From NCBI RefSeq assembly GCF_002951615.1, contig NZ_CP019062.1, positions 1,736,001 to 1,800,000 on the forward strand: a DNA stretch of 64,000 nt. The letters run 5' to 3'. The notes beneath the pieces are model-generated. The model had not been told where the DNA came from. It saw nothing but the letters and a program-made list of their open reading frames with translations, and did not search any database. The stretch comes from Rahnella sikkimica (GTDB lineage Bacteria; Pseudomonadota; Gammaproteobacteria; Enterobacterales; Enterobacteriaceae). Within the stretch, counting starts at the first letter, position 1. Each line of letters opens with the position of its first letter. Of this stretch, positions 3,710 to 48,884 are shown one piece after another. Made by a program: the position numbers and the translations under genes.

Positions 3710-3797
3710 TCTCTGAGCTGCCTGTGCGGCAGCGCACGAAGCTTAGCGGGTTGCCGGCTAGCGCAGTCGTTTCTAAGCTGCCTGTACGGCAGCACAG
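3710..3797 (-). CRISPR. Type I-F CRISPR mini-array remnant, interrupted at attL
   Basis: A degenerate 28-nt repeat at 3710-3737 (stem GCTGCCTGTGCGGCAG, four mismatches to the I-F consensus) is followed by a spacer of exactly 32 nt (3738-3769), the usual I-F length. A second repeat starts at 3770 with the canonical TTTCTAA and GCTGCCTGTACGGCAG, but its last five bases (3793-3797, CACAG) belong to the prophage. The consensus reads 5'-GTTCACTGCC on the minus strand, so the leader should be to the right and the degenerate copy is the terminal repeat. No cas gene is present in the window. Confidence 0.9.
3777..3792. other. attL core
   Basis: The sequence GCTGCCTGTACGGCAG is identical to the attR core at 48864-48879. 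On the host side it is preceded by TTTCTAA, the first seven bases of the I-F repeat; on the phage side it is followed by CACAGG. The inverted arms CTGCC/GGCAG around TGTAC are the CRISPR hairpin stem and have the geometry of a tyrosine-recombinase core site. Confidence 0.9.
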
Positions 3798-3908
3798 GGA
3801 ATCACCCATATTACTCATTAAAATCAAATAGATAATCGGTATTTTTAAGAGTAATTCAAAGGTTTTGAACACTAAATAAATGCCTTTAACTTCATATGCT
3901 TACAATTA

Positions 3909-3920
3909 GTTTTGGGGATG
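3909..3920 (+). other. Candidate integrase arm-type site (attL side)
   Basis: GTTTTGGGGATG shares its first ten bases with the GTTTTGGGGAAGAG copies found inside attR at 48786 and 48810. It lies about 117 bp inside attL. Lambda-type integrases bind such arm sites on both sides of attP, so the match supports the assigned attachment site. Confidence 0.5.
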
Positions 3921-3963
3921 TAAATTGACAGTATTTTTCAGAAAGGGTAATCTGATCAAGGAG

Positions 3964-4230
3964 TGTGTTTATCCAGTAGCATGAGTTCAATTCTCATAAG
4001 CACGCATTTTATTCCGGCTCTTCTTACAATACTAATCATTACAATTCCACGCATTACAAGTGTTGTTTTGATGAATCTTGCAAATAAGGAAAAGCCTATG
4101 AATAGAGTATTCCGTACTACCCTAATGATTGCTTCATGTTTCTGTGAAACCGTATGGGCTGGAATAGTAAGCGTGTTTGCAGGTGCCTTCGCTGTCCACT
4201 CCGAGCTAGGCTCGGTACTGGATAAACACA
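3964..4230. repeat. 267-bp segment bounded by 15-bp perfect inverted repeats
   Basis: TGTGTTTATCCAGTA at 3964-3978 is repeated exactly in inverse at 4216-4230 (TACTGGATAAACACA). The 237 bp between are AT-rich and open on both strands. No target duplication is visible next to the arms, so a MITE-like element is possible but unproven. Confidence 0.55.
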
Positions 4231-4241
4231 TTTGCATTTAA
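3981..4241 (+). CDS. Possible small membrane protein
   Basis: An 86-residue reading frame from ATG 3981 with two hydrophobic stretches (roughly residues 8-30 and 48-70), so a two-helix inner-membrane protein is conceivable. AAGGAG lies 17 bases upstream, further than ideal; an in-frame GTG at 3963 overlaps that site. The frame spans almost exactly the 15-bp inverted-repeat segment, and an overlapping frame of similar size exists on the other strand. Coding status is therefore doubtful. I recognise no family. Confidence 0.3.
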   Translation: MSSILISTHFIPALLTILIITIPRITSVVLMNLANKEKPMNRVFRTTLMIASCFCETVWAGIVSVFAGAFAVHSELGSVLDKHICI

Positions 4242-4264
4242 GCTAATGCTCTTGTATGAAGTTT

Positions 4265-4304
4265 CCGGACGGTGGGTTCAAATCCCCCAGCGGTTTTTTT
4301 TCAC
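4265..4304 (+). terminator. T-arm-like hairpin followed by a T tract
   Basis: CCG...GTGGG, a seven-base loop TTCAAAT, CCCCC...CGG, then eight T. It works as an intrinsic terminator, but its loop also fits the tRNA T-loop rule (TTCRANY), and the bases before it resemble the 3' end of tmRNA. No matching 5' acceptor strand is found nearby, so it is at most a tRNA/tmRNA 3' relic reused as a terminator. Confidence 0.5.
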
Positions 4305-4503
4305 CTGTTGAAAAAATCTTGTGCGTCAAATGTCATCAAAACCCACTTTTGTTGCATTAAATAAAGCAGTCATCTGTTTTATCGCCCCTGACTTTACTCG
4401 ATATATCCTCAGTATTTGCGCTGTTATCCATTCAGTCTATGATTAACTCCATAATTATTTTAAAACCGGAACGTTCTTCGATCCGATGCTATACAAGGCG
4501 CAT

Positions 4504-4602
4504 ATGATGAAGTACCTAATGGTGGTCCCTTCATTGCTGTGCATAATTGTCATTATTATCGTTCTTGCATGGGTTATGGATGGCACCTATCCGAGTCTAT
4601 GA
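4504..4602 (+). CDS. Tiny single-helix membrane protein (32 aa)
   Basis: ATG ATG AAG opens a 32-residue frame whose middle (VVPSLLCIIVIIIVLAWV) is one strong transmembrane helix, followed by the short tail MDGTYPSL. It is the first of three consecutive tiny membrane frames on the plus strand between attL and the umuD-like gene. No clear Shine-Dalgarno sequence precedes it. Such accessory peptides occur beside phage attachment sites, but I recognise no family. Confidence 0.45.
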   Translation: MMKYLMVVPSLLCIIVIIIVLAWVMDGTYPSL

Positions 4603-4629
4603 CCAGCAAAACTTAACTGAGATATCTTG

Positions 4630-4728
4630 ATGAATCTGAAATTTATTCCCCCCATTATCGTGCTAATCGGTGCGGTTGGATTCATGGTGTGGTTCTTTGC
4701 TAGCGGTGCTGCAATGCCTGGCGGGTGA
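4630..4728 (+). CDS. Tiny single-helix membrane protein (32 aa)
   Basis: A 32-residue frame (MNLKFIPPIIVLIGAVGF...) with one transmembrane helix and a glycine-rich end. It starts 27 bases after the stop of the preceding tiny frame and ends 18 bases before the next one, so the three look co-transcribed. Its size matches its neighbour although the sequences differ. Function unknown. Confidence 0.45.
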   Translation: MNLKFIPPIIVLIGAVGFMVWFFASGAAMPGG

Positions 4729-4746
4729 GCGACAAATGGAGGGTGA

Positions 4747-4905
4747 ATGTCTGTTTACTTAATAATTGGATTAGTTCTAATCATTTGGTCATTACCTACA
4801 CTCATTGTTGCTATCTATAGGAAAGATCGTGATCAGGTAATCCGTGCCAGTAGGGTTTCTTGCATAGCAGCCCTTATCATAGCTGTAGGATATGTTGGGG
4901 GCTGA
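4747..4905 (+). CDS. Small two-helix membrane protein, superinfection-immunity-like
   Basis: A 52-residue protein with a strong ribosome site (GGAGG, four to five bases before ATG 4747). Helix one covers LIIGLVLIIWSLPTLIVAIY, a charged loop follows (RKDRDQVIR), and a second helix lies near the end (CIAALIIAVGYVGG). The LPT...A pattern followed by a short basic loop and a second helix recalls the superinfection-immunity membrane protein family (Imm type). The similarity is weak, so this is a suggestion only. It is the best supported of the three tiny membrane genes here. Confidence 0.55.
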   Translation: MSVYLIIGLVLIIWSLPTLIVAIYRKDRDQVIRASRVSCIAALIIAVGYVGG

Positions 4906-5148
4906 TTAGATGGTCTGAGTCGGTAGAGGTCAAAGAGATGTGGACTTTCATTGTTAAATAATTTCACTTTTTAACAGAATAATTTGTTTCCGACATCATG
5001 CTGTATAAAGCCTATTTACGATAACCCGGCCACCGAGACGGTTTTTTGTGCACGTTATCTGGCAATCGGCACGCTTCAAACTATTATTACTTCAGCTGAC
5101 AAGAGATTAGCAGGTCTGCCAAGACAAATAGCATTCTACCCTTACGAA

Positions 5149-5177
5149 AGCCCGCCTAGACAACGGGCTCTTTTTTT
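5149..5177 (+). terminator. Intrinsic terminator
   Basis: AGCCCG, a nine-base loop, CGGGCT, then C and a run of T. Downstream of the three tiny membrane genes. Confidence 0.8.
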
Positions 5178-5274
5178 GCCTGCTACTTGGTGAATATCTG
5201 AGCATCAGCTAATCTTTGAAGTGGGTGGAGTGAATACCCTCCAGCACTAAGTAATGTTGATAACTTTGATGTTT

Positions 5275-5303
5275 AGCCCGTCGTTAACACGGGCTATTTT
5301 TTT
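5275..5303 (+). terminator. Intrinsic terminator
   Basis: AGCCCG, a nine-base loop, CGGGCT, A and a T tract. A second copy of nearly the same hairpin, 126 bp after the first. Confidence 0.75.
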
Positions 5304-5400
5304 AACTACAAAACAAGATAAACTTAAGTCAAATTTTTAAATTCAGCTACTATAAAAGAAGGAGTAATACTCCTGTTCCGAAGTAAACTTTTGTGATGAT

Positions 5401-5982
5401 TCACTGGCCCTCTTTTGAGGGCATTTTTTCTTCCGCTTCCAGATCGCCACCTTTAATCAGCGTTTCCATGTCAGGCAGATCAAGTGATTGCAACGCCAGT
5501 GTCGGATGAAAGCGCACACGCTTCAAGCAGAATTCGCCACAAAACTTTGCGATCACAATGCTGCCTTCCGGTGGTTTGCGTGCTGTATCGATAACAGGGA
5601 TCGCATCTTTCTTGATGCCAGCCCGCCAGCTTGCATCGCCAACAAGCATCAGATACTGGCTTGGGCGGCTAAACCACTTGCAGGCTTCATTCGGCGTTAC
5701 CGACTTTTCAACGTAATCCCCTGCAGGTGATGGAAATCCCATATTAACGCCCTCCGTTGGGTTGAAGAGAGCGAACGTCCTGGCGTCTCCTTCTACGGTC
5801 GACACGTCGTGAAACGTATTAACGTAGATTTCGATCCAATGGTTGGCCTCGCGTAAACTCCAGTGCCAGTTTATCTTCACCAGTTCCGCCACAAAATCCT
5901 CAGTAGTGACAGTCCTGCGTCCTTTCTCGCTTATCTTGATAGCACACTTAAATGCAGCATCAATCTCGTATCTTCTTGGCAT
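5401..5982 (-). CDS. UmuD-like protein with N-terminal extension, catalytic serine displaced
   Basis: A 193-residue protein. Residues about 80-168 align with UmuD: GFPSPAGDYVE follows the cleavage-site position, and GEFCLKRVRFHPT matches the region of the catalytic lysine (K154 here, K97 in UmuD). At the serine position UmuD has GDSM, but this protein has GDAS, so the aligned residue is Ala117 with a serine one step later. The cleavage cysteine is replaced by Met81. It may therefore be non-cleavable. The first 75 residues are an unrelated helical domain. A strong LexA box lies 18 bp before the start. No umuC accompanies it. The role is probably SOS-linked modulation of host polymerase V or of a repressor. 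Confidence 0.65.
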   Translation of the reverse strand: MPRRYEIDAAFKCAIKISEKGRRTVTTEDFVAELVKINWHWSLREANHWIEIYVNTFHDVSTVEGDARTFALFNPTEGVNMGFPSPAGDYVEKSVTPNEACKWFSRPSQYLMLVGDASWRAGIKKDAIPVIDTARKPPEGSIVIAKFCGEFCLKRVRFHPTLALQSLDLPDMETLIKGGDLEAEEKMPSKEGQ

Positions 5983-6000
5983 TTTTTACCGCCCAAATAA

Positions 6001-6016
6001 CTGTACATGTATACAG
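6001..6016. promoter_or_regulatory. LexA (SOS) box
   Basis: CTGTACATGTATACAG matches CTGT-N8-ACAG exactly, is flanked by A/T, and sits 18 bp upstream of the umuD-like start at 5982. Confidence 0.85.
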
Positions 6017-6205
6017 TATAATCGTGAAGTATTAGGATTGTGAAGGCCTGCTATTGGAGAAAATCTTAGAGGGCTGATCTGGAAGGAGGGATTTTAATCC
6101 CCAGCAGTATCGATATGCATCACTCTATGGCACTGCAAGCGCTGGAACAGAGCATGGGTTCGTGGGAAAATGTCTCATAGTTGTTAATTTTAGGGTTTAG
6201 AAGGC

Positions 6206-6460
6206 GTGCTTATACATATCGAAACGGCTGCACAAATGTTAGGGATCAGCACTGGCGAACTCTTCCATTGCATAACAAGAACTGGGAATGTTTTGGGCTT
6301 AAAGCTGCCAAAAACCAAGAACACGAAGCCTGGTGACAACATGCCACACTACATGTTTGTAATGGATGATTTCATAGAGTTTGCAAAAGAGTTTAAGAAA
6401 CACAAGAGGTCAATGGATAGAAAAGTTATTCCCATGCCCCCAAAATGCAAGCCAAGATAA
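6206..6460 (+). CDS. Small hypothetical protein
   Basis: An 84-residue frame opening at GTG 6206, with an internal ATG at codon 11 as alternative. The first part (AAQMLGISTGELFHCIT) resembles a short HTH of the excisionase/MerR size class, and the end is very basic (KEFKKHKRSMDRK). It lies 150 bp before the gtr cassette. I recognise no family; a small DNA-binding protein is the most I can infer. Confidence 0.45.
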   Translation: MLIHIETAAQMLGISTGELFHCITRTGNVLGLKLPKTKNTKPGDNMPHYMFVMDDFIEFAKEFKKHKRSMDRKVIPMPPKCKPR

Positions 6461-6609
6461 TCAAAACAGAAGTAACCCCTCAACGGCTCATTATCTGACC
6501 GGTTAGTGTTTTTTTCCGGAAATAAACGCTAAGTTTGTTTGCTAAATGCTGATCGCTATGCCTTGTGATGATAGAATTCCAAACCTAATCCCGCCACAAC
6601 TCATTACAA
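6461..6609 (+). promoter_or_regulatory. Upstream region of the gtr cassette
   Basis: A 149-bp AT-rich gap that must hold the gtr promoter. I looked for the multiple GATC and OxyR half-sites that phase-vary Salmonella gtr operons and found only one GATC (6550), so this switch is not evident here. Confidence 0.4.
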
Positions 6610-6972
6610 ATGCTAAAATTATTCTCCCGCTATATCTCTGTAGGTGTCGTCAATACCTGCATACATTGGGCCGTGTTCGCTTGTGGAGTCTACTTGGCAG
6701 GCGTGAACCAGGCGGCGGCAAACTTTATCGCTTTTTTGGTGGCTGTCAGCTTCTCATTCTTTGCTAATGCTAAATTCACTTTTAAAGCAGAAGCCACCTC
6801 AAAAGGTTATGTACTTTATGTCGGCTTTATGGGGATTATGAGTTTAATCACTGGTAAAGTTTCTGACTACTATCATATAAACCCACTTATTACCCTTATT
6901 GAGTTTTCCGCCATTAGCTTAATATGCGGATTTCTGTTTTCCAAATTTGTGATATTCAAGGAATCGAAATGA
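6610..6972 (+). CDS. gtrA: GtrA, bactoprenol-linked glucose flippase
   Basis: A 120-residue four-helix inner-membrane protein of the GtrA family. The opening ([17 protein letters not shown]) and the motif [21 protein letters not shown] are characteristic. In phages of the SfV/P22 group GtrA flips undecaprenyl-phosphate-glucose to the periplasmic face so that O-antigen can be glucosylated. The stop codon overlaps the start of gtrB (ATGA), and the three gtr genes form one unit ending at a terminator at 9496. Base composition is more AT-rich than in the phage structural genes, as usual for gtr cassettes, suggesting separate acquisition. Confidence 0.93.
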
Positions 6973-7886
6973 AAATATCTCTCGTAGTCCCTGTTTACAA
7001 TGAAGAGGACGCCATCCCTATTTTCTACAAAACAGTGCGCGAGTTCGATGGATTGAAAGATCATTTGATCGAGTTGGTTTTTGTCAATGATGGAAGCAAA
7101 GACTCTACGGAAGCAATAATTCATGCTCTTGCATTATCAGATTCAAACGTTAAAGCAATAAGCTTTACGAGAAACTTCGGCAAAGAGCCTGCTCTATTTG
7201 CCGGGCTAGAACATGCTTCCGGTGATGCAATTATCCCTATTGACGTAGATTTGCAAGACCCGATCGAAGTAATACCCAGGCTGATTGAAAAGTGGCTCGA
7301 TGGTGCTGATATGGTTCTGGCAAAAAGAACAGACAGGTCTACTGACGGTCACTTAAAACGCAAATCAGCTGAAATGTTCTACAAGCTTCACAACAAAATA
7401 AGCAATCCAAAGATTGAGGAAAATGTTGGCGATTTCCGTCTAATGTCGCGTGACGTTGTCGAAAACATTAAGCTCATGCCTGAGCGAAACCTATTTATGA
7501 AGGGAATTCTTAGCTGGGTTGGGGGCAAAACAGAGGTAGTTGAATACTCACGCGCAGAGCGTGTGGCGGGGACATCGAAGTTTAATGGCTGGAAGTTATG
7601 GAATCTGGCTCTGGAAGGAATAACAAGCTTTTCAACCTTCCCTCTCCGGATTTGGACATACATAGGACTACTAGTTGCTTTTATTTCGTTCATTTATGGT
7701 GGGTGGCTAGTTGTCGATACCTTGGCGTTCGGCAATCCAGTTCATGGTTACCCTTCTGTTATGGTTTCGATTCTTTTCCTTGGTGGAATTCAGCTTATTG
7801 GGATTGGCGTCCTTGGGGAATACATTGGCAGAATTTACACTGAAACGAAAAGTCGCCCACGATACATTACTAAAAAAATGGATTAA
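6969..7886 (+). CDS. gtrB: GtrB, undecaprenyl-phosphate glucosyltransferase
   Basis: A 305-residue family GT2 enzyme that transfers glucose from UDP-glucose to undecaprenyl phosphate on the cytoplasmic face. The N-terminal domain shows [13 protein letters not shown] and [10 protein letters not shown], then DVDLQDP (metal-binding DxD region) and [11 protein letters not shown]. Two C-terminal transmembrane helices follow (roughly residues 220-245 and 260-285), ending in [11 protein letters not shown], a typical GtrB tail. The start is ATG 6969, which overlaps the gtrA stop; an in-frame upstream codon at 6924 would lie inside gtrA and is rejected. Confidence 0.95.
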
Positions 7887-7888
7887 TC

Positions 7889-9367
7889 ATGATTAAAAGA
7901 AATCACTTAGCGTATATTTTTGCCTCGGCTTGTTTAGCTATCGGCGCAGCAATTAGTTTCTATCTATCATCGCGATATTTTTCAGCCGACCCTGATTTTT
8001 TGAACTCATCGATTGTTTGGAGTGAAATAAAAACACGTGGCTTAAAAATAATGCAGGAGTGGAGCCCAACCGTTGATAATTGGTACATATCAATTTATCC
8101 AATCCACTTTTTAGTATTTTTAATTTTTGGTACGCCAACTATTTTAATGCTAAAGATAATGGCCGCATTTCAGATAACAATCTGCGCATTTCTTGCATCT
8201 CTTATCGTTTATAAAAAGACACGAAACCCATTAGCTTTTCTTTTGGTAATATTTTTTACCACAATATCTTATTATTCCTATAATATCGGGTTTGCTTTTC
8301 ATCTATTCTCACACAACTCTGTAAATTTGTATGGTCTTTTATGTATCCTTATTTACGTGTGTTGGGATAAGAGTCTCGCTGCATGCATCGGAATTTGCCT
8401 CATCTCGCTGGCATCATCTATTTCTGACCCATGGTTCGTAGTCGCTTATACTATACCATTATTAATTTTAGCTATTTATGACAAAGTTACGAAAAAAAAC
8501 ACCTCTTGGAGTTTTGTTCTTGCTTACACAATTACTCTGATAATATTCTTTAGCCATATAATTCAGCATTACTTGAAGGTTCCAGTAACTAAATTTCAGA
8601 TTGCCGATGTTGATATAGCCTTTAGCAATCTTAAATTTTTTATGGTTGATTCTGGGTGGATGAGTAATATATTTTTCATTAAAAACGAATGGGCTTATGT
8701 TGCTTCTTCATTAATTATGGTACTTGTGACGATTGCATCTGTTTGTTACAGCAATAAGCTAAATAGCATAAACACTGTATTGCTTTTCTCTTTATTAGGT
8801 GTTTCATCATCCTTTATTATTGGACTCCCAGAGAAAGATGAAATATCAGCTAGATTTCTTGCTAATTTAATTTATTTAGTTCCAATTATTCTTTGCGTAA
8901 ATATAAACAAATTAACCAGAGTTTTCGTAATCCCTTTCCTGTTACTTTGTTTTTCTTCATCGATTCACTCACACATGGTTAATTATGGAAATAATTATGA
9001 TGAAGAGGTGTTAGATCAAATTAAATTCATGAAAGAACACGACCTAAACTTCGGGTATGGGGCCTATTGGGGTACAAGGTCTAGTAGTGTTACATGGATG
9101 TCTAATGGGGATGCCACTATCATTCCTGTTGTCGTAAATCACTCAAATGGCGAGATAAATTGGCAAATCCACCGCTCACAGGTTTTCGAGCACTGGTATA
9201 ATCCTACGCAGAAACAAACATTTATTGCGATAACTCAGGATCAAGAGACTTGCCCCGTGGTTGAACTATGTATTTCTGGCATGCAAAAACAAAATGGTAC
9301 GCCAGACAATATTTTAAAATATAAAGACATTACATTTTTAGTTTATAAAAATGGCATACCTCGCTAA
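7889..9367 (+). CDS. gtrC: GtrC-type serotype-converting glucosyltransferase
   Basis: A 492-residue polytopic membrane protein with about ten hydrophobic helices and a C-terminal soluble part from about residue 370. It starts two bases after gtrB. In gtr cassettes the third gene is the serotype-specific enzyme that moves glucose from the lipid carrier to an O-antigen residue in the periplasm; the third position, size and topology identify it. Third genes are highly divergent, and I cannot say which sugar linkage it makes. It is strikingly AT-rich compared with the tail genes. Expression would alter lysogen O-antigen and probably block reinfection by phages that use it as receptor. Confidence 0.8.
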   Translation: MIKRNHLAYIFASACLAIGAAISFYLSSRYFSADPDFLNSSIVWSEIKTRGLKIMQEWSPTVDNWYISIYPIHFLVFLIFGTPTILMLKIMAAFQITICAFLASLIVYKKTRNPLAFLLVIFFTTISYYSYNIGFAFHLFSHNSVNLYGLLCILIYVCWDKSLAACIGICLISLASSISDPWFVVAYTIPLLILAIYDKVTKKNTSWSFVLAYTITLIIFFSHIIQHYLKVPVTKFQIADVDIAFSNLKFFMVDSGWMSNIFFIKNEWAYVASSLIMVLVTIASVCYSNKLNSINTVLLFSLLGVSSSFIIGLPEKDEISARFLANLIYLVPIILCVNINKLTRVFVIPFLLLCFSSSIHSHMVNYGNNYDEEVLDQIKFMKEHDLNFGYGAYWGTRSSSVTWMSNGDATIIPVVVNHSNGEINWQIHRSQVFEHWYNPTQKQTFIAITQDQETCPVVELCISGMQKQNGTPDNILKYKDITFLVYKNGIPR

Positions 9368-9519: not shown

Positions 9520-9555
9520 GTGTACTTGCGGCGCACCAGGAAGGAAAGAAAATTA

Positions 9556-12503: not shown

Positions 12504-12505
12504 CG

Positions 12506-37678: not shown

Positions 37679-39672
37679 GCGGCCACCTCTTTATCAGCGC
37701 CGCACATTTCCGGCAGATTGGCGCGCACCAGGGCTTCAGCGAATGGCGGCGGTACCGCGTTACCACAGCGCGCTACCTGTTTGTCTTTTGCGTATTTCTT
37801 GCCGCGATAGTCCTGATCGATGATGTACCAGCTCGGGAAACCCTGAGCGGCGTAAAGCTCATGGGGTTGCAGCATGCGCATACCGATATCAACGATCTGG
37901 TAATCGACACCCTCAACGGTGACCAGGCCGAATCTGTCATTCGTGGTTACGGTGTGCAGAGACCCGTCCAGACTGATGCCTTCTTTCTCGTTGCCGTAAT
38001 ACTTGAGCAGGAAAGCGCGTACTTCACCGATGTGCAGGCCGCCGGCTGTAATAGTCGGGGCCGGTTCAGTGACTTGCTGGCCATCTTTACAGGTGCCGCG
38101 CAGCTTTATCAGAGTGGATGTGACCAGCGCATGATGATCAGTGGTGGTAACTGTGTGAGCCGGTGCATCCATCGCCGCGCCAGCACCGGTGTAGTTACCG
38201 CCGAAGTGTTTCGCGAGGAACGCGGTGCATAACTGACTTTTACCGCCACCGCCTGCCGTAATTGTGCCGTTTGGCTCATCAGCTGCGTGACCGACACTGT
38301 TGCCGAACTGGCGGGCAATCACCGGAGCGACCAACAAGTGTTCTGCTTTGCTGGTTACGGTGGTAAGTGGCTTGCCAGCTTCATATGCCATGCGGTCGCC
38401 GCCAAAACCTGTCTGCCCGATTCGGGCAATGATCGGCGCAACCAGTGCGTGTTTACCACCACCTGCAACAACTGTCCCGAGAGGTTTTTGAATATCCAAT
38501 GCGCGCGGGGCCTGTCCTTCACGTTCTCCATACCCTATCTGAATCAGCGCCGGTGCTAGTGTTGCTTCTACCATGCCGAGTGCATGACCATAGCCGCCCG
38601 GACGTTCTGAACTGCCAGCGGTGATCGTCGGCAATGGTTCATCAACTTCCTGACCAGTCGCACCGGTACGAAATTTGGTGATGTGCGGGGTAACGACCGC
38701 ATAACCGTGGGTTTTCGTGATCGTCTGAAGCGGCTCATTCAACGCCTGACCACGGAAGCAGTTGTAACTGGTTTTGGTGCTGGTGTGGTTGCACTTCACG
38801 ATAAACGGCGTCGGGTTGTCGATCACGAAACGCTGAATGCCGCGCGCAATTCGCTTCAGCGTGTTCTCTGCCAGCGGCTTTTTACGCTCGAAGATGCTCG
38901 GGCATGGGATTGACCAGTCAATACACTCGGCGGCGGTGCGGTATGACGCCAGCTTTCCGCTCTGCACGTCCAGAGACTTCGGATCGCCGTGGCTGGCCAA
39001 TGGCCACTTAACGGGCTGCCCGTCGCAACGCATCACCATAAAGAACCGGCGGCGGATTGTCGGCGCGCCGAAGTCACAGGCACGTAATTCACGGTGATCG
39101 ACAACGTAGCCCAGACCGGCGACCAGACGACGGACATCGTCGCTGTTCACATCGATGTTCAGCACTTCGCAGCATTCTGCAATTGCCGGATGATCAGCGG
39201 GAACGCCGGTGGTCAGCATGCCAATAAAAGCCGCAAAGGTTTCACCAGCGCGCGCAGGATCCGGATGTTCTGTGCCATCTTCGGCGGTCAGAAGCGGGCC
39301 CCACGTTTTAAACTCTTCGACGTTCTCCAGCATCATCACGCGCGGGCGTTTTGCCAGAGCCCAGCGGATCACAATCCATGCCAGACCACGGATTTCTTTC
39401 TTAACGGGTTTGCTGCCTTTCGCTTTGCTGAAGTGACGGCAGTCCGGGCTGAACCATGCCAGGCCGACAGGACGGCCGTCAGTCGCCACAATAGGGTCAA
39501 CATCAAACACGGATTCGCAGTAATGCAGTGTTTCAGGGTGGTTTGTGCTGTGCATCGCAATGGCGTTCTCGTCATGGTTGATCGCGATATCTACGCTGCG
39601 ACCCGTTGCCATCTCAATACCGGTGCTCGCCCCACCGCCGCCCGCAAAATTGTCTACGATGATTTCTTTCAT
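37675..39672 (-). CDS. DNA (cytosine-5) methyltransferase with repeat-rich recognition region
   Basis: A 665-residue C5-MTase. Motif I is VDNFAGGGGAS (residues 6-16). The catalytic cysteine motif is SPDCRHFS (75-82) instead of the usual GxPCQ, and ENV follows at 116-118. From about residue 300 to 610 the recognition region is built of repeated units: (G)xDEPLPTITAGG...HALV.P.I..., seen at least six times with variation. Motifs IX-X (MRMLQPHELYAAQGFP and QVARCGNAVPPP) close the protein. No restriction nuclease is adjacent, so it probably protects phage DNA from host restriction. Confidence 0.9.
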   Translation of the reverse strand: MKEIIVDNFAGGGGASTGIEMATGRSVDIAINHDENAIAMHSTNHPETLHYCESVFDVDPIVATDGRPVGLAWFSPDCRHFSKAKGSKPVKKEIRGLAWIVIRWALAKRPRVMMLENVEEFKTWGPLLTAEDGTEHPDPARAGETFAAFIGMLTTGVPADHPAIAECCEVLNIDVNSDDVRRLVAGLGYVVDHRELRACDFGAPTIRRRFFMVMRCDGQPVKWPLASHGDPKSLDVQSGKLASYRTAAECIDWSIPCPSIFERKKPLAENTLKRIARGIQRFVIDNPTPFIVKCNHTSTKTSYNCFRGQALNEPLQTITKTHGYAVVTPHITKFRTGATGQEVDEPLPTITAGSSERPGGYGHALGMVEATLAPALIQIGYGEREGQAPRALDIQKPLGTVVAGGGKHALVAPIIARIGQTGFGGDRMAYEAGKPLTTVTSKAEHLLVAPVIARQFGNSVGHAADEPNGTITAGGGGKSQLCTAFLAKHFGGNYTGAGAAMDAPAHTVTTTDHHALVTSTLIKLRGTCKDGQQVTEPAPTITAGGLHIGEVRAFLLKYYGNEKEGISLDGSLHTVTTNDRFGLVTVEGVDYQIVDIGMRMLQPHELYAAQGFPSWYIIDQDYRGKKYAKDKQVARCGNAVPPPFAEALVRANLPEMCGADKEVAA

Positions 39673-41565: not shown

Positions 41566-42488
41566 AGGGTGTTCTCCCATGCTTCAGCGCTGTTCCAGTG
41601 GCCGCCAGCTGAAGTTTCAGCCGGGACATTTGCGGTCAGTTTGATTGTCAGGTCGTCCCATTTTTCGCGGAGTTTCGACGGGTTCAGGATGTTCTTGCAC
41701 CAGAAGGTGTCGCGGTTAGCGCGGACAAACAGCTCACAGATTTGCTTATGTGTGCGGCCGTCGGCAGTACACATCAGGCGGATTTCATTTGCCCAGAGGG
41801 TCATATCCGGTTCTTTCGGGCGGGAAATCTCGCCGTCGCATTCGGCAGCCTGTTCGTACATGCGGATGATTTTTCCCCAGATGTATTCGGCAGCGGTCAG
41901 GTCGTCGGCACCTCCCCACTTACGTTTTTTGGCATTGAACACCACCGCTTCAGGGTGAAGAGCAAGAAAACTTTCATCACTGCTGTCGTCTGGCTGCGAA
42001 GCGGCCGGACTAAGGGTTTTATTACCTTGTGGATCAGGTGTTGTAGTTACTTGTGGATCGGCTTCAAAATTTGAAGGGCTAACTGCCGCGACGGCTTTGT
42101 TATTTGAACCCTCAGAATTTGAGGCCTCAATTTTTGATACCTCAGAATTTGATGCTTCAAAATTTGAAGGGGTATCTGTGGAGTTTGCTTCTGCTGCCGC
42201 CTGAACCAGCTTTGCTACGTTGATGCGATAAATATTGCTGGTATTGCGTCCCTTCGTTTTGCGTTCCTGCACTTTCAGCCAGCCACCCGCCTCGAGAACT
42301 TTCAACGCGCTGCGCACAGTGTTTGGGCTTTTCGCCCCAACCTGACGGGCAATGCGCGGGATGGCAGGCCAACTGATACCGTCATCGTTGCTGTAATCAG
42401 CAAGGCGGGACATGATCGCCACCTGAGAAATGGATAAGCCAGCAGGCGCGCATGCATCCCAAACCAGCCCCTGAAGTTTATTGCTCAT
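41562..42488 (-). CDS. Replication initiator O-like protein with origin inside
   Basis: A 308-residue protein. The N-terminal winged helix (LSISQVAIMSRLADYSNDDGISWPAIPRIARQVGAKSPNTVRSALKVLEAGGWL) binds origin iterons. The middle contains a repetitive segment (SNFEA, SNSEV, SKIEA, SNSEG) that is simply the translation of the 15-bp iterons at 42095-42169. The C-terminal part (DMTLWANEIRLMCTADGRTHKQICELFVRANRDTFWCKNILNPSKLREKWDDL) contacts the helicase loader. The arrangement copies lambda O, where the origin also lies within the gene. Confidence 0.9.
   Translation of the reverse strand: MSNKLQGLVWDACAPAGLSISQVAIMSRLADYSNDDGISWPAIPRIARQVGAKSPNTVRSALKVLEAGGWLKVQERKTKGRNTSNIYRINVAKLVQAAAEANSTDTPSNFEASNSEVSKIEASNSEGSNNKAVAAVSPSNFEADPQVTTTPDPQGNKTLSPAASQPDDSSDESFLALHPEAVVFNAKKRKWGGADDLTAAEYIWGKIIRMYEQAAECDGEISRPKEPDMTLWANEIRLMCTADGRTHKQICELFVRANRDTFWCKNILNPSKLREKWDDLTIKLTANVPAETSAGGHWNSAEAWENTL
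42063..42169. other. Phage replication origin: 15-bp iterons
   Basis: Four tandem 15-bp units start at 42110, 42125, 42140 and 42155 (CCTCAGAATTTGAGG, CCTCAATTTTTGATA, CCTCAGAATTTGATG, CTTCAAAATTTGAAG), a degenerate one precedes at 42095, and an isolated copy lies at 42063-42077. The units are near-palindromic, as in lambda ori, and lie inside the O-like gene. Confidence 0.8.
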
Positions 42489-43372: not shown

Positions 43373-43397
43373 TTCTCTTTTCCTTCGGTAGTTATGC

Positions 43398-43607: not shown

Positions 43608-43620
43608 ATCGCCTCCATTA

Positions 43621-43683
43621 CTAAGTTAAGTTAGATATTAAATACTAATCTTTATTAGGTCAATAAAAACTAAGATTACTTAG
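43621..43683. promoter_or_regulatory. Right operator region, three operators
   Basis: Three 14-bp palindromic sites: CTAAGTTAAGTTAG (43621-43634), CTAATCTTTATTAG (43645-43658) and CTAAGATTACTTAG (43670-43683). They begin 24 and 25 bp apart, like lambda OR1-OR3, between cro and cI. Confidence 0.85.
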
Positions 43684-43707
43684 CTTTATTTAATTCATGG
43701 TGGTGAG

Positions 43708-44334
43708 ATGGAAACGGTCGGCCAGCGGATAAAATCGCTAAGAAAGGTGACGAAAACATCCCAGAAAGATCTGGGTAAATTCTGCGGCGTGAGTGACGTG
43801 GCGGTGGGTTATTGGGAAAAAGACGTGAACGTACCGAGCGGTGAGTCTCTTTCTAAGTTGGCTAAATTTTTCAATACGTCGATTGAGTACGTACTTTACG
43901 GCACTGAGTTTGAAGATAAGCTGATTACCAGAATGCGGCGCATACCGGTGATCTCATGGGTTCAAGCCGGTGCTTTCACAGAATCAAAATCACCTGAAAC
44001 CTTCTCAGATATAGAGCGGTGGATAGAAACATCCCTTAGAGTGTCGGCTAATTCTTTCGCTTTAGAAGTTAAAGGGGATTCTATGACAAACCCTAATGGC
44101 CTCCCAACCATTCCCCAGGGCGCCACGGTTATCGTTGACCCTGAGGCCGAGCCAGTTAATGGAAAAATCGTCGTTGCCAGAATAGATGGAACAAATGAGG
44201 CAACCGTTAAGAAATTGGTCATAGATGGGCCACAGAAGTTCTTGGTACCATTGAATCCTCGCTATCCAAACTTACCGATCAACGGTAACTGCACCATCAT
44301 CGGTGTTGTCAAAGGCGTTCAATACGACCTTTAG
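43708..44334 (+). CDS. CI-type prophage repressor (HTH plus S24 peptidase)
   Basis: A 208-residue repressor. The HTH is residues about 17-40 (SQKDLGKFCGVSDVAVGYWEKD). The C-terminal LexA-like domain has the Ala87-Gly88 cleavage site (WVQAGAF), Ser125 in GDSM and Lys168 in ATVKKL, so RecA-stimulated self-cleavage and SOS induction are expected. It maintains lysogeny by binding the CTAAG-type operators on both sides of the gene. Confidence 0.95.
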   Translation: METVGQRIKSLRKVTKTSQKDLGKFCGVSDVAVGYWEKDVNVPSGESLSKLAKFFNTSIEYVLYGTEFEDKLITRMRRIPVISWVQAGAFTESKSPETFSDIERWIETSLRVSANSFALEVKGDSMTNPNGLPTIPQGATVIVDPEAEPVNGKIVVARIDGTNEATVKKLVIDGPQKFLVPLNPRYPNLPINGNCTIIGVVKGVQYDL

Positions 44335-44373
44335 TCCCTCTCCACACTGCTGACTAATCCAAACCAAATTAAA

Positions 44374-44422
44374 CTAAGTTTAGTTTGGTTTTTCGCTTGA
44401 CCACAAAACTAAGTTAAGTTAG
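44374..44422. promoter_or_regulatory. Left operator region
   Basis: CTAAGTTAAGTTAG at 44409-44422 is identical to the first right operator. A related palindrome, AAACTAAGTTTAGTTT, spans 44371-44386. They lie just after cI, where a left early promoter reading rightward would be. Confidence 0.75.
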
Positions 44423-44444
44423 ATTAATCCTAAGTACAGCACAA

Positions 44445-44518
44445 CGGGAAGAACACTGTGGGTTGAGGGACTCACTTACCATCAACTCGATCTGACCACA
44501 GAACCAGTGTTCTTCCCG
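44445..44518 (+). repeat. Long inverted repeat in the left early leader
   Basis: CGGGAAGAACACTG (44445-44458) is exactly complementary to CAGTGTTCTTCCCG (44505-44518). Inside are CTGTGG/CCACAG and GTTGA/TCAAC pairs, so nearly all of the 74 nt can fold. No N-like antiterminator gene is seen between the operators and the first genes, so an RNA-based antitermination element like HK022 put is one possibility. Confidence 0.65.
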
Positions 44519-44530
44519 ATGTTCGTTAAA

Positions 44531-44722
44531 TTAGTGAGTAGGCACGCCCGGAACCAGAGTCAAGTATGGGATTTCACGGAAGGTTACGACTTCATTCACG
44601 TTGACGGGATGCTTGCAACCTGCACATACGATGGAGGAGACGGTCTCAGAGAATGCAATGCTAGAAGTAACAGTGAATCTCTCAGAATTACACTTTTCGC
44701 AGATAAGTTTTATGTCAGGCAT
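44531..44722 (-). CDS. Small zinc-ribbon phage protein
   Basis: A 63-residue protein, MPDIKLICEKCNSERFTVTSSIAFSETVSSIVCAGCKHPVNVNEV, with two CxxC pairs (CEKC and CAGC) 24 residues apart, a treble-clef or zinc-ribbon arrangement. The overlapping plus-strand frame lacks any recognisable feature and is rejected. It is oriented against the left early operon and has only a weak ribosome site. Function unknown. Confidence 0.65.
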   Translation of the reverse strand: MPDIKLICEKCNSERFTVTSSIAFSETVSSIVCAGCKHPVNVNEVVTFREIPYLTLVPGVPTH

Positions 44723-44829
44723 TTTTGCACTCGAGGAATAAGTGGCTCACTCAATAAGATTATTAAGAATCTTCCTATTCCGTATATCAGTATAGCAGGA
44801 GTTCAGATTTGTGATTAAGCCGACAACGC

Positions 44830-44893
44830 AAAAAGCATTGCCGAATGGTGGCTTTACCCAAACCCATTCGTATTTCTGAAAACAGTGCTTTTT
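44830..44893 (+). terminator. Nested terminator hairpin
   Basis: AAAAAGCATTG at 44830 pairs with CAGTGCTTTTTT ending at 44893, with an inner stem CGAATGG/CCATTCG. Ends in a T tract, so it likely stops leftover left-promoter transcripts. Confidence 0.65.
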
Positions 44894-44896
44894 TCG

Positions 44897-44967
44897 TTGT
44901 GCATAGCATCCTGGTGATGGTCGGGTTCCCTACCCGATTGCGGGTTCGACTCCCGCCGCACTATCAG
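44897..44967 (+). ncRNA. tRNA-like element with CCC anticodon loop
   Basis: The fold has a 5 of 7 bp acceptor, T8, a 3-bp D stem with GG in the loop, an anticodon stem TCGGG/CCCGA with loop TTCCCTA (T33, anticodon CCC), a two-base variable loop, and a perfect T arm GCGGG-TTCGACT-CCCGC that fits TTCRANY. The variable loop and D arm are too short for a normal tRNA and no CCA is encoded (CAG follows). I read it as a tRNA-like or decayed tRNA element. Confidence 0.45.
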
Positions 44968-45010
44968 ATCGACGTGGAACTCGATAATTGCTGTGTGTAG
45001 TTGTCTTTCG

Positions 45011-45087
45011 GCGGTGGCATGACTCTTCAACCATCCAACATCAGGGGGAGTGAAGATAATGTTCTGATCATGACCACCGCCATTTTT
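45011..45087 (+). ncRNA. Structured RNA candidate with terminator tail
   Basis: GGCGGTGGCATGA at 45011 pairs with TCATGACCACCGCC before a T6 run (one bulge), with an inner CTTCA/TGAAG stem. The result is a 77-nt two-tier hairpin ending like an intrinsic terminator. It could be a small RNA or merely a second strong terminator. Confidence 0.5.
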
Positions 45088-45092
45088 TCGCA

Positions 45093-45153
45093 GACATAGA
45101 CAAGGGTTCGCTGGCCCCACCCAGTGCGCAACCGGTGGCCCTTTTCTATGTGT
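45093..45153 (+). repeat. Third stem-loop of the early leader
   Basis: ACATAGACAAGGG pairs with CCCTTTTCTATGT (one mismatch), enclosing a GC-rich loop of about 33 nt with CCGG-type pairing. It lies 47 bp before the 45200 gene and may shape its translation or serve as an antitermination element. Confidence 0.5.
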
Positions 45154-45199
45154 GTGAGTAATTTCCTGCGGTGTGCACCGCGATAACGAGGACAGTTGA

Positions 45200-45571
45200 A
45201 TGGCTGAAGACCGTATGACCAAAGTCCCGGAGTTTCTCTCCGAACTGGACGCCGGTATTTTCGAAAACAAAATCTCCGCCGCGCTGAATGCCGCAGCTTT
45301 AGGCGTTCTTAACAACGGCGGTAAAGGCAAAGTCACCATCGAGATTGATGTTTCCCGCATCAGTAATTCGATGGAAGAAAAACGCGTAATGCTGGCTCAC
45401 AAACTGAAGTTCTCAGCACCAACGCCGCGCGGGAAAACGTCGGAAGAAGACACCACCGAAACCCCGATGTACGTGGGCAAAGGCGGCAAGCTGTCCATCA
45501 TGCAGGAAGATCAGGGCCAGTTATTCACAATGGCGGGTGCTGCTGACGGCAAACTCCGCGACGCGCGATAA
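45200..45571 (+). CDS. Hypothetical left-operon protein, partner of the YfdQ-like gene
   Basis: A 123-residue protein with a good ribosome site (GAGGACA). MTKVPEFLSELDAGIFENKISAALNAAALGVLNNGGKGKVTIEIDVSRIS is a pattern seen directly upstream of DUF2303 genes in enterobacterial prophages, as here (35-bp gap). A beta-rich core is likely. No function is known; the pairing suggests a shared role. Confidence 0.65.
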   Translation: MAEDRMTKVPEFLSELDAGIFENKISAALNAAALGVLNNGGKGKVTIEIDVSRISNSMEEKRVMLAHKLKFSAPTPRGKTSEEDTTETPMYVGKGGKLSIMQEDQGQLFTMAGAADGKLRDAR

Positions 45572-45606
45572 CCATCGCATTAAACCTTCTGAAAAAGGAA
45601 ATCGTT

Positions 45607-46434
45607 ATGTCTCAAGTTTTAGACGCATCAGCAATCAAAGAAGTCCGCGACATGTCTTTTTCGACGCTGCTGGAAGAGCGTCTTTCCTCCGCTGATTGCC
45701 CCGCTGTAGCTCTGCCAGAGTCAGTGCGCATTCATTCTCTCGAAAACCTGCAGGATGGACGCTTCCGCTTCCGCGGGAAAATGGAAACCGCCAGCATTCA
45801 CGACTTCTGCCGCTACTGTAAACAGTATGCAGGTGCTGGCGTGCGCAGCTTCATCAACGCCGACAACATGGCAGCAGTGACAGTATTCAACCTCGGCACA
45901 CTGGATTTGCCAGGGCACGCCGATAACACAGCAGTGCTGAAGCTGAAACGCACCGCCCCATTCCAAGCTTTGCTGAATATCAACGGTGCCAAAAACTCAC
46001 AGAAAGATCTGGCCGAGTGGCTGGAAGACTGGTCTGAATTCCTGATTGCTTTCACCGCTGACGGTGAAGTGCTGGACATCAAGAAAGCGATCGGCGGCGT
46101 TCGTAAGATCACAATCGAAGCATCCAGCTCGGCGGATCATGAAGACAGTGATTTCGGTGCCAAACGGTCAGTAATGGAAAGCGTGGAAGCGAAAAGCAAA
46201 GAAGTCATGCCAGCGGCTTTTGAATTTAAGTGCGTGCCGTATGAAGGTCTCGGTGATCGCCGCTTCCGCCTACGCTACAGCGTGTTGACCGGCGGCAATG
46301 CTCCGGTGCTGGTTTTGCGCATTGTCCAGCTGGAAACCGAAGAAGAGCATATGGCGACCGAGTTCCGCGAACTGCTCGAAACCAACTTCACCGACGTTGA
46401 AGTCGAAACATTCATTGGCGAATTCAAAGCCTGA
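45607..46434 (+). CDS. DUF2303 (YfdQ-like) protein
   Basis: A 275-residue protein of the DUF2303 family: MSFSTLLEERL, FRFRGKMETASIHDFCRYCKQYAGAGVRSFINADNMAAVTVFNLG and APFQALLNINGAKNSQKDLAEWLEDWSEFLI are characteristic and match YfdQ of the E. coli CPS-53 prophage. Function is not established; it is a standard left early gene in lambdoid and SfV-like phages. A 9-bp stem-loop follows the gene. Confidence 0.88.
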   Translation: MSQVLDASAIKEVRDMSFSTLLEERLSSADCPAVALPESVRIHSLENLQDGRFRFRGKMETASIHDFCRYCKQYAGAGVRSFINADNMAAVTVFNLGTLDLPGHADNTAVLKLKRTAPFQALLNINGAKNSQKDLAEWLEDWSEFLIAFTADGEVLDIKKAIGGVRKITIEASSSADHEDSDFGAKRSVMESVEAKSKEVMPAAFEFKCVPYEGLGDRRFRLRYSVLTGGNAPVLVLRIVQLETEEEHMATEFRELLETNFTDVEVETFIGEFKA

Positions 46435-46445
46435 TAACGCGGCCT

Positions 46446-46473
46446 TAAATGCCCTGATTCGCCGGGGCATTTA
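46446..46473 (+). terminator. Stem-loop after the DUF2303 gene
   Basis: TAAATGCCC and GGGCATTTA with a ten-base loop, no T tract. A weak terminator or processing hairpin. Confidence 0.45.
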
Positions 46474-46577
46474 GTGAATCGTTATTACTGAAATTTAATT
46501 GCCACATCGGGCAAGGGCTTCGTTCAATCTAAAAACAGCGTGCAGCTTATTTCTTTCTTAAAGTGTGGAGTAATTCT

Positions 46578-46718
46578 ATGTCCTGGTTAACCATCCCCCC
46601 AGCAAAGCCTGTCGTACTTCACCAAACCGGCCATATTGGCCATGTAAGCAGTATTGGAGATTTGCTTGTGGAACTGACTGATGAAGCTCTAACAAGTGAG
46701 GGTGTCGCAGCAATTTAG
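46578..46718 (+). CDS. Small left-operon protein (46 aa)
   Basis: A 46-residue frame (MSWLTIPPAKPVVLHQTGHIGHVSSIGDLLVELTDEALTS...) preceded by GTGTGGAGTAAT, the same ribosome-site sequence found before xis at 47380. The leader match supports translation. No family recognised. Confidence 0.6.
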   Translation: MSWLTIPPAKPVVLHQTGHIGHVSSIGDLLVELTDEALTSEGVAAI

Positions 46719-46810
46719 CCCGTGGACTGCATCATTGAAGGTGGTGAGTAACCTTCTGGGCATGGAAGCCAGTGCTATAATCGACACATGTAAATCTGAT
46801 AGGAATATAA

Positions 46811-47197
46811 ATGAAAATCATAGCCTTGACTTTAATACTAGTCCCTTCATTAACTTTCGCTTCACTCAAAAGTTTAGAACTTGAAGTTTCTGGTACGCAT
46901 TTCACTATTCCACCCTCTTGCGTCAAGTCGGTGCAAATTGATGAGAATGAAGAGCCAGTAAACAACGGGGTTTATTTTGAAATTGAGTCGCCCTGTTCTA
47001 AGCAGTTATCTGATCTCTCCATAATGAATATTGGACAGCAAATGACAATTTCATACAACGGTCAGCTAGTGCAAAAAGCTACCATCACTTCTCGTTTATT
47101 CGGTGGATTTAAGTTCAGCACTACCGGAAGCAATATGATGGTAATTCGGCAAATTATCGCTGATTGGAAGTCGAAGCCAGGCAACAGCAATGCCTAA
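46811..47197 (+). CDS. Secreted protein resembling the SecDF P1 head subdomain
   Basis: A 128-residue protein with a clear signal peptide (MKIIALTLILVPSLTFA, cleavage about residue 17-18). The C-terminal part (IGQQMTISYNGQLVQKATITSRLFGGFKFSTTGSNMMVIRQIIADWK) follows the SecDF P1-head-like pattern of small periplasmic proteins. It has its own AT-rich upstream stretch and lies between left-operon genes, so it may be a lysogeny-expressed moron. Composition is lower in GC than its neighbours. Confidence 0.6.
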   Translation: MKIIALTLILVPSLTFASLKSLELEVSGTHFTIPPSCVKSVQIDENEEPVNNGVYFEIESPCSKQLSDLSIMNIGQQMTISYNGQLVQKATITSRLFGGFKFSTTGSNMMVIRQIIADWKSKPGNSNA

Positions 47198-47348
47198 ACG
47201 GGCTCATTTAGTCAGTCGGGTTTCCGTGAAAAGAATGCTGGATCTGTGGTTTGTTCCAGTTGAGTTTGCGTCAGCAATGCCGCCAGGGGAGAAAATGCTC
47301 TGGTGGCGAGCTGGGAAATATTACGGCCGATTTCGGATCAGCCAGTAA
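47190..47348 (+). CDS. Small basic protein (52 aa)
   Basis: A 52-residue frame starting inside the end of the preceding gene (eight-base overlap): MPKRAHLVSRVSVKRMLDLWFVPVEFAS... rich in Arg and Trp. The overlap and the tight placement before xis suggest it is real. No family recognised. Confidence 0.5.
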   Translation: MPKRAHLVSRVSVKRMLDLWFVPVEFASAMPPGEKMLWWRAGKYYGRFRISQ

Positions 47349-47391
47349 GCCGGTGTGCAGCCGGCTATAACTAAACGTGTGGAGTAATAGC

Positions 47392-47649
47392 ATGGGCCAG
47401 TTAGTTTCTTTAGCGGAATGGGCAGCAGGGCCAAATGGCTTCAAAGAACCACCGTGTAAAGCCACCCTGCATCGAATTGCAAAAACCCGGCAGACTTACC
47501 CGCCGGCAGTAAAACAGGGTCGGCGGTGGGTCGTTGATGAGGAAGCCAGGTTTGTTGGTATGGTTGATCGGGTCGAAATATCGAACCATCTTCCAGCCAA
47601 CGCCCGCACTTTAGTGGAGAAAGCACTTAATGGCAGCAAGACCCCGTAA
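47392..47649 (+). CDS. xis: Excisionase
   Basis: An 85-residue protein: LVSLAEWAAGPNGFKEPPCKATLHRIAKTRQTYPPAVKQGRRWVVDEEARFVG is a MerR-like winged helix of the phage excisionase kind. GTGTGGAGTAAT lies just upstream. It overlaps the integrase start by 20 bases, as xis and int do in lambda. It would bend attR/attL DNA and direct excision. Confidence 0.88.
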   Translation: MGQLVSLAEWAAGPNGFKEPPCKATLHRIAKTRQTYPPAVKQGRRWVVDEEARFVGMVDRVEISNHLPANARTLVEKALNGSKTP

Positions 47650-48775
47650 ATACAACATTTCAACACCGAACTTGTATTGCAAATTGGATAAGCGAAACAA
47701 CAAAACGTACTGGCAATATCGTCACCCCATTACGGGGGAGTTCGTCGGTTTTGGCACGGATTCAGATGCCGCGCACGCTGCGGCCCTTGAAATGAATCGC
47801 ATAACTTCAGAGCAATTAACTTCTCAATCTTTCGCCCTGATAGACATCGCGAAGCAAAGAACCGAACCTAATGCTCAGAACATGCGGTTAAAGCAGTGGG
47901 TGAAAGAATATAAGGCGCTCCTTGATCGACGCGTGCAGCGAAAAGAGTTGGCATCATCAACCGCTAGAGGCCGTAAGGCGTGTGCTGAACTCCTTTCGGC
48001 CAGGTCGCAAAACATATTGCTTAAAGATGTTGGCGCGCGTGAGATGGCTGCTTTGATAAACGAATATGTCGATGCGAATAAAACAAGGATGGCGCAGGTT
48101 ATGCGGTCGGCGTGGATCGACATGTTTAAAGAAGCACAGTTTGCCGGAGAGGTTCCCCCCGGCTTCAATCCGGCTCTGGCCACCCGTAAACCGCTGGATG
48201 AAGTATCCAGACAGAGACTCACGCTCGAGAACTGGTGGGCGATTTATCGCGAGGCTGAACACAGATCACCGTATATCTGCAATGCCATGCTGCTCGCTGT
48301 AGTTACTGGCCAGCGCCGTGGCGACATTGTAAAAATGAAATTCTCTGATATTTGGGATGACATGCTTCATGTTGTCCAGGGAAAGGGGAAAGGCAAAATC
48401 CGGATAGCGATCCCCTTATCGTTGCATTGTGATGCCATCAACATGAGTGTTCGCGATGTGATTAACAAATGCCGCGACCGCGTGCTGAGCAAACACCTTA
48501 TCCATAATTCAACGGTCGTCGGGGGTTCAGCCCTGGGCTCACCTGTGGCTGAAGGATCATTAACACAGCGATTCGCCGAGGCTCGAGATTGCGCCAAAAT
48601 CAAAATCGAAAAGGGCAAAACACCACCTACATTTCACGAACAACGCTCTCTTTCTGAACGCTTATATAAAGCCCAGGGGATCAACACACAGGAATTACTG
48701 GGACACACTTCAGCGAAGATGACTGAGCTCTATCATGATGAGCGCAAAGAAAAGTGGATTGTCATTGCCGTTTAA
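47630..48775 (+). CDS. int: Lambda-type tyrosine integrase targeting a CRISPR repeat
   Basis: A 381-residue recombinase. Residues 1-60 form the lambda Int arm-binding domain (PRKYNISTPNLYCKLDKRNNKTYWQYRHPITGEFVGFG). Residues about 82-175 are the core-binding domain. The catalytic set is Arg229 (TGQRRGD), His336 and Arg339 (TFHEQRSLSERLY), His359 (LLGHTS) and Tyr368 (TELYHDER), all in lambda spacing. It ends 88 bp before the attR core. The core it recombined is the palindromic stem of the host I-F CRISPR repeat. Arm-type candidate sites lie between the gene end and attR and inside attL. Confidence 0.95.
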   Translation: MAARPRKYNISTPNLYCKLDKRNNKTYWQYRHPITGEFVGFGTDSDAAHAAALEMNRITSEQLTSQSFALIDIAKQRTEPNAQNMRLKQWVKEYKALLDRRVQRKELASSTARGRKACAELLSARSQNILLKDVGAREMAALINEYVDANKTRMAQVMRSAWIDMFKEAQFAGEVPPGFNPALATRKPLDEVSRQRLTLENWWAIYREAEHRSPYICNAMLLAVVTGQRRGDIVKMKFSDIWDDMLHVVQGKGKGKIRIAIPLSLHCDAINMSVRDVINKCRDRVLSKHLIHNSTVVGGSALGSPVAEGSLTQRFAEARDCAKIKIEKGKTPPTFHEQRSLSERLYKAQGINTQELLGHTSAKMTELYHDERKEKWIVIAV

Positions 48776-48785
48776 TTATCAGTCA

Positions 48786-48823
48786 GTTTTGGGGAAGAGT
48801 TTTGGAGAGGTTTTGGGGAAGAG
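48786..48823 (+). other. Candidate integrase arm-type sites (attR side)
   Basis: GTTTTGGGGAAGAG at 48786-48799 and 48810-48823 are identical, with a shorter variant GTTTTGGAGAG (48799-48809) between them. They sit 41-78 bp from the attR core, and a related copy lies inside attL at 3909. Confidence 0.65.
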
Positions 48824-48863
48824 ATTTATTTAGCGATAAAACAGTGGGTTAATTCATTCGTGT

Positions 48864-48884
48864 GCTGCCTGTACGGCAGTGAAC
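48864..48884 (-). CRISPR. attR core and right part of the split I-F repeat
   Basis: The core GCTGCCTGTACGGCAG (48864-48879) is followed by TGAAC (48880-48884), the last five bases of the canonical I-F repeat on this strand. On the phage side the preceding bases are TTCGTGT. Joined to TTTCTAA before the attL core, it restores all 28 repeat positions. Confidence 0.92.

Follow-up and report, generated by a model that had tools for sequence, protein, structure and literature searches.

Known prophages in CRISPR loci and the locus studied

Prophage integration into a locus of clustered regularly interspaced short palindromic repeats (CRISPR) was reportedly described by Varble et al. in 2021 for Streptococcus pyogenes, in a locus that we take to be type II-A. 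Here we analyze a stretch of 64,000 nucleotides of the Rahnella sikkimica genome (GCF_002951615.1, contig NZ_CP019062.1, positions 1,736,001 to 1,800,000), hereafter the window, in which a type I-F CRISPR repeat is interrupted precisely by a complete prophage. In all probability a lambda-type tyrosine integrase placed the prophage there, using the palindrome CTGCC-N5-GGCAG of the repeat as the core of the bacterial attachment site (attB).

The S. pyogenes prophage occupies the direct repeats of its CRISPR locus and is described as disrupting immunity (PMC10359306). Both cases place a prophage within CRISPR direct repeats; however, they differ in CRISPR type and phylum, in unrelated hosts, and in the Rahnella case the integrase is lambda-type, several repeat positions are used and the array is an orphan. 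The R. sikkimica case is plausibly independent: prophages in CRISPR repeats are already known from S. pyogenes, and what is new is type I-F with a lambda-type integrase. Phage 21-type lambdoid integrases attach in icd. The phage 21 integrase is 47% identical to that of R. sikkimica and shares its arm-binding and catalytic domains, but the R. sikkimica attB is an I-F repeat and not icd; a distant relative (L028) does adjoin an isocitrate dehydrogenase gene. A prophage of Providencia stuartii CMC-4104 has likewise been reported in an enterobacterial CRISPR locus, in passages that give no CRISPR type, junction or integrase (PMC9476899). RNA anti-CRISPRs, or solitary repeat units carried by phages, also combine phage DNA with an I-F repeat stem (PMC10651486); an RNA anti-CRISPR is a solitary repeat that a phage promoter expresses and that binds Cas proteins. 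In the R. sikkimica prophage the stem is instead an attachment core beside int. No publication on I-F repeats as prophage attachment sites was found among the matches listed, a search of titles and abstracts with most subscription papers outside its scope, and the partial texts of PMC10484321, PMC11542602, PMC6546361 and PMC8754663 contained no I-F case.

The prophage junctions are hybrid I-F repeats

As claimed in a preliminary description made from the sequence alone, identical copies of a 16-bp core, GCTGCCTGTACGGCAG, bound the prophage at 3777-3792 and 48864-48879; a further copy, at 3717-3732, carries one mismatch. With up to two mismatches allowed, the window holds three matches against an average of 0.06 in shuffled sequences (0 of 100 shuffles reach three), and the prophage interior has no further copy at this threshold. 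Across the 5.53-Mb genome, with A or G accepted at the variable base, the same three positions are the only mismatch-free copies. Joining the host halves around one core (TTTCTAA, core, TGAAC) yields TTTCTAAGCTGCCTGTACGGCAGTGAAC, 28 nt in length, which occurs exactly in the arrays of other Rahnella genomes, so the earlier proposal that the flanks rebuild an exact I-F repeat holds. Repeats within three mismatches of TTTCTAAGCTGCCTGTACGGCAGTGAAC, many of them exact, were counted in 8 of 14 Rahnella genomes, R. sikkimica itself scoring zero, its repeat being interrupted by the prophage.

Each junction combines the shared core with part of the host repeat to make a hybrid I-F repeat, and the element common to the two is the repeat stem, as the preliminary description had it. 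On the minus strand, the Rfam family CRISPR-DR4 matches them at 35.6 bits (3770-3797; cut-off 35) and 36.5 bits (48857-48884), and the attL hybrid retains the stem and CTTAGAAA. The second, degenerate repeat that had been noted 32 nt to the left is also present, at exactly this distance and at a CRISPR-DR4 score (34.8 bits) slightly under the cut-off. A third candidate, absent from the preliminary description, follows 61 bp further left; about 1e-4 of window positions match equally well. From left to right, the units are:

3649-3676, minus strand: possible terminal, very degenerate I-F repeat (10 mismatches), placed like the terminal repeat of the prophage-free genome G004; a weak candidate
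3710-3737, minus strand: degenerate I-F repeat (5 mismatches)
3738-3769, minus strand: 32-nt spacer
3770-3797, minus strand: attL, hybrid I-F repeat (host half 3770-3792, core 3777-3792), from sequence and Rfam
3793-48863, no strand assigned: complete lambdoid contractile-tail prophage, from PHROGs and Pfam
48857-48884, minus strand: attR, hybrid I-F repeat (core 48864-48879, host half up to 48884), from sequence and Rfam
48885-49000, minus strand: I-F leader remnant, from by-eye alignment with Rahnella leaders

The leader remnant includes a sequence resembling a binding site for integration host factor (IHF), AATCAATGAGTTA, at 48980-48992, presumably reflecting a role of IHF in the leader. 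The spacer found no phage match; imperfect matches were recovered in 10 plasmid records, some at several places.

Because the stem is short and the array consists of two or three repeats, all but one degenerate, the likeness might be put down to a chance palindrome in an array that is not CRISPR. The shuffles and the CRISPR-DR4 matches speak against such a coincidence, as do synteny with full I-F loci and the full arrays beside attR in relatives, and since the relatives contradict it outright we rejected it as next to impossible.

An attachment site in a transfer RNA (tRNA) or transfer-messenger RNA (tmRNA) gene was considered and rejected, the window containing neither kind of gene. Two weak matches resembling the tail of tmRNA, far under the Rfam cut-off, lie at the left end of the prophage (3980-3997 and 4274-4286).

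Host locus, array remnant and empty site

The array is flanked by two host genes:

2654-3652, plus strand: GlxA-type regulator gene (DJ-1/PfpI and AraC helix-turn-helix domains by Pfam), left flank, matched in 14 of 14 Rahnella genomes
49272-49721, minus strand: conserved right-flank gene, function unassigned, with no Pfam family; its DNA relatives adjoin I-F arrays in Rahnella

Between these two genes, G002, G011 and G013 carry cas1, cas2/3, csy1-4 and arrays, while in G008 the same cas genes are spread over two contigs; Csy4 is present in 5 of the 14 Rahnella genomes. In G010 (L203, C33:149000-168000), cas2/3 and csy1-4 stand beside a long array in a different gene order, with cas1 unmatched in that stretch. 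Searches of the R. sikkimica genome recovered neither Cas1 nor Csy4, and its array is therefore an orphan remnant comprising a leader, the first repeat (split), a spacer, a degenerate second repeat and perhaps one more that is very degenerate.

The intact repeat expected at this locus in a prophage-free relative is found in G004, where the GlxA-type gene is followed by a degenerate repeat, a spacer, an exact repeat and the leader; no cas genes were matched in the 19.5 kb around this empty site. In a second prophage-free genome, G012, the 0.9 kb that separates the flank genes holds a single repeat, with 4 mismatches, and no evident leader. The cas genes were presumably lost from such strains through array-array recombination, independently of the phage. 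The suggestion that the phage itself had inactivated the array finds no support in R. sikkimica: Cas1 and Csy4 were not found, the remnant is short with degenerate distal repeats, and prophage-free G004 is similarly short and lacks cas nearby. Here, with neither Cas1 nor Csy4 detected, the orphan repeat is probably a docking site only, and no immune role is seen.

The integrase and its attachment region

The recombination genes sit at the attR end of the prophage, and candidate binding sites for the integrase (Int) occur at both ends:

3909-3919, plus strand: putative Int arm-type site, TTTTGGGGA-like, at the left end; recurs in other members
47377-47649, plus strand: excisionase of the Exc family, from Pfam and PHROGs
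47630-48775, plus strand: lambda-type tyrosine integrase, from Pfam, PHROGs and alignment to lambda Int structures
48787-48826, plus strand: putative Int arm-type sites, TTTTGGGGA-like repeats, at the right end; kept in members

Pfam recognizes both an arm-binding and a catalytic domain in the integrase, and residues 12-379 align with lambda Int, confirming its earlier assignment as lambda-type; the function of the arm-type sites is suggested by their sequence. The phage attachment site (attP) deduced from the two junctions reads GTGCTGCC-TGTAC-GGCAGCAC, with an 8-bp inverted repeat. In the proposed mechanism, Int bound to the TTTTGGGGA-like arm sites would pair this attP with an I-F repeat, which would make each repeat of an array a potential attB, and Int would then catalyze strand exchange at the repeat stem.

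Recurrence among close integrase relatives

A search of the genome collection with the integrase returned one close relative, L009 (95%), other matches being at most 53% over the full length or short partial matches of at most 63%; IMG/VR added 13 relatives at 94-100%, among the best 80 of 104 matches. The closest named relative belongs to Rahnella ecdela FRB 231 (G005, sharing a contig with L009). Eight of the 14 close relatives have DNA beyond int, and six end at the int stop. In all eight (one of which, L034, is apparently the same prophage as that of R. sikkimica), the I-F core begins 91 bp beyond the final codon of int. TGAAC comes next, and then a Rahnella-type leader, either directly or following one or two more repeats; integrase homologs thus bear the same flanking repeat, as had been anticipated. 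The shared core is 15 bp in L045 and L046. Between attR and the leader, L043, L044 and L046 retain two, one and two repeats, respectively; as these are canonical and not copies of the hybrid, the phage would have entered the third, second and third repeat.

Among the six relatives ending at the int stop, G018 and G019 show attL, with one further repeat and spacer to its left, and the remaining four show no core. In two further contigs, L306 and L294, the phage left ends are closely similar and sit in neighboring repeats of one array type. Both prophage ends are visible in the R. sikkimica window, G005, G016 and G026. In the phylogeny, read without rows L136-L138, which are wrong-strand translations, the R. 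sikkimica integrase and 13 relatives form one clade (support 100/100). The label 'CRISPRatt' requires four changes on this tree because, those rows aside, it was given only to members with a junction seen, and the sites of some clade members lie outside the data.

A prophage could also reach a repeat without its integrase, if a solitary repeat carried by the phage recombined homologously with the array. Phages with solitary I-F repeats do exist, judging from many single repeats in viral contigs and from PMC10651486. However, the shared stretch is only 15-16 bp, the spacing between int and core is constant in 8 of 8 members, and both ends have putative arm sites; we consider this route very improbable. 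As far as sequence can establish them, the precise insertion in the repeat, its recurrence, the use of several positions and an intact empty site are all secured; most likely, a lambda-type integrase lineage uses I-F repeats as attB.

Distant integrases and wider scans

Among more distant integrases, with identities of about 55% or lower, none of 25 had an I-F core (up to three mismatches) within 1.5 kb past int, L047 and L141 offering only 81 and 103 bp there; nor did L136-L138, read on the correct strand, have a core near int (0 of 3). They adjoin other genes, as L028 does. Five genomes with 45-53% integrases had no match to TTTCTAA plus core at up to one mismatch (0 of 5), and these genomes may lack such arrays.

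A scan for hybrid repeats across 394 Enterobacterales genomes, two of them Rahnella, found the attR type in three and the attL type in three, with both types only in R. sikkimica. We rejected the others as prophage junctions: the two remaining attR-type matches are array ends, and the two remaining attL-type matches look like variant repeats. In viral sequences, TTTCTAA plus core matched 66 stretches, mostly arrays, solitary repeats and known members, with L294 and L306 as new members; the attP-type core plus CAC matched three stretches, namely the attL junctions of two members and one unrelated stretch. Several viral contigs (L247, L248, L256, L270, L291, L292 and others) each carry one unit that resembles an I-F repeat but does not end in TGAAC; these are probable solitary repeat units, and some that lie near contig ends could be other attachment junctions.

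Several points weigh against integrase-mediated use of the repeat as attB. The central core bases vary between members, G016 having G at attL and C at attR; such variation would be disfavored by a strict lambda-type overlap, although the variable base of G016 may be part of the strand-exchange region or have changed by later mutation. L294 and L306 were assigned by their left ends, the stretches examined not including their integrases. Several metagenome members may be close kin, in which case independent insertions are fewer than contigs. The attP-type scan of viral sequences did not reveal a circular form; excision, attP and integration went unobserved.

Contact with CRISPR-Cas and its possible consequences

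In hosts with cas genes, insertion would separate the repeats beyond the prophage from the leader, silencing the older spacers, while the leader-side spacers are predicted to stay in place in a cas-bearing lysogen. G026 (IMGVR_UViG_2884587386_000002) has such an arrangement, running from the leader through two repeats, attR, prophage, attL and one repeat remnant to the cas genes, with complete cas1, complete cas2/3 and csy1 reaching the contig end. Between its cas2/3 and csy1 lie two degenerate I-F repeats about 63 bp apart (L312; G026:C1:45131-45209), a pair that we take to resemble a CreA-like mini-array; at the matching place, G013 has a gap of about 350 bp.

In cas-bearing G002 (L193:12028-14215) and G013 (L206:12368-14482), an attL junction with phage-like DNA stands beside a second array. 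In G002 this relic aligns piecewise, over about 1.1 kb, with the left end of the R. sikkimica prophage; the G013 relic matches G026 over 372 bp, but not the R. sikkimica prophage. Both scars are probably decayed relatives of this prophage.

Rahnella arrays also hold spacers that match the phage. Of 162 distinct Rahnella I-F spacers, taken from the loci examined rather than from all arrays, three match the R. sikkimica prophage at up to six mismatches, compared with none of the reversed spacers:

39038-39069, plus strand: protospacer for a spacer from G010, with 3 mismatches, flanked by CC
41718-41749, minus strand: protospacer for a spacer from G008, with 5 mismatches, flanked by AC
45497-45528, plus strand: protospacer for a spacer from G002, with 1 mismatch, flanked by CC

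CC, on the 5' side of two of these protospacers, is the I-F protospacer adjacent motif, and all three source genomes have Csy4.

It is quite possible, if somewhat short of an even call, that the repeat is a neutral safe harbor, the integrase recognizing a palindrome with no immune consequence and the insertion being tolerated mainly where CRISPR-Cas is already dead. Consistent with this are the failure to detect Cas1 and Csy4 in R. sikkimica, the lack of Csy4 in G005, and G016 and L306, in which the GlxA-type gene ends just left of a short array and leaves no room for cas there. The complete cas1 and cas2/3 beside the G026 insertion, the junction relics in cas-bearing G002 and G013, and the three matching spacers argue otherwise. 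More tentatively, the lineage may be specialized on immune memory: as its integrase treats I-F repeats as landing sites, the phage would enter arrays of the type in which spacers matching it are kept, cut older spacers from the leader in cas-bearing hosts and leave hybrid-repeat scars on decay. Because the attL hybrid still has the stem and the CTTAGAAA handle, an outward phage promoter could even bring captured spacers under phage control, and transcripts of the hybrid that started in the phage might undergo processing.

On the preferred reading, integrase-mediated entry at the repeat stem, one phage lineage repeatedly uses CRISPR repeats for attachment; the case concerns type I-F and a phylum different from that of S. 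pyogenes, and the integrase would have a natural multi-copy target. On landing, the phage would split immune memory in two. With loci with and without cas, an empty site and members at different repeats, the system allows one to ask whether phages gain from landing in immune memory. For genome surveys it carries a warning that hybrid or orphan I-F repeats can be prophage junctions.

Prophage content

PHROGs and Pfam assign terminase, portal, protease, major head, tail sheath, tape measure and tail fiber genes to the prophage, together with CI- and CII-like regulators, O- and P-type replication proteins, methyltransferases, GtrB, and the excisionase and integrase described above. Known anti-CRISPR genes were not found among 10 small open reading frames (ORFs) compared with NCBIfam and 10 ORFs compared with Pfam, a subset of the prophage ORFs. 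A gtr-like cluster at 6610-9367, consisting of a 120-residue ORF, gtrB (PHROGs) and a 492-residue ORF with no Pfam match, likely serves O-antigen modification.

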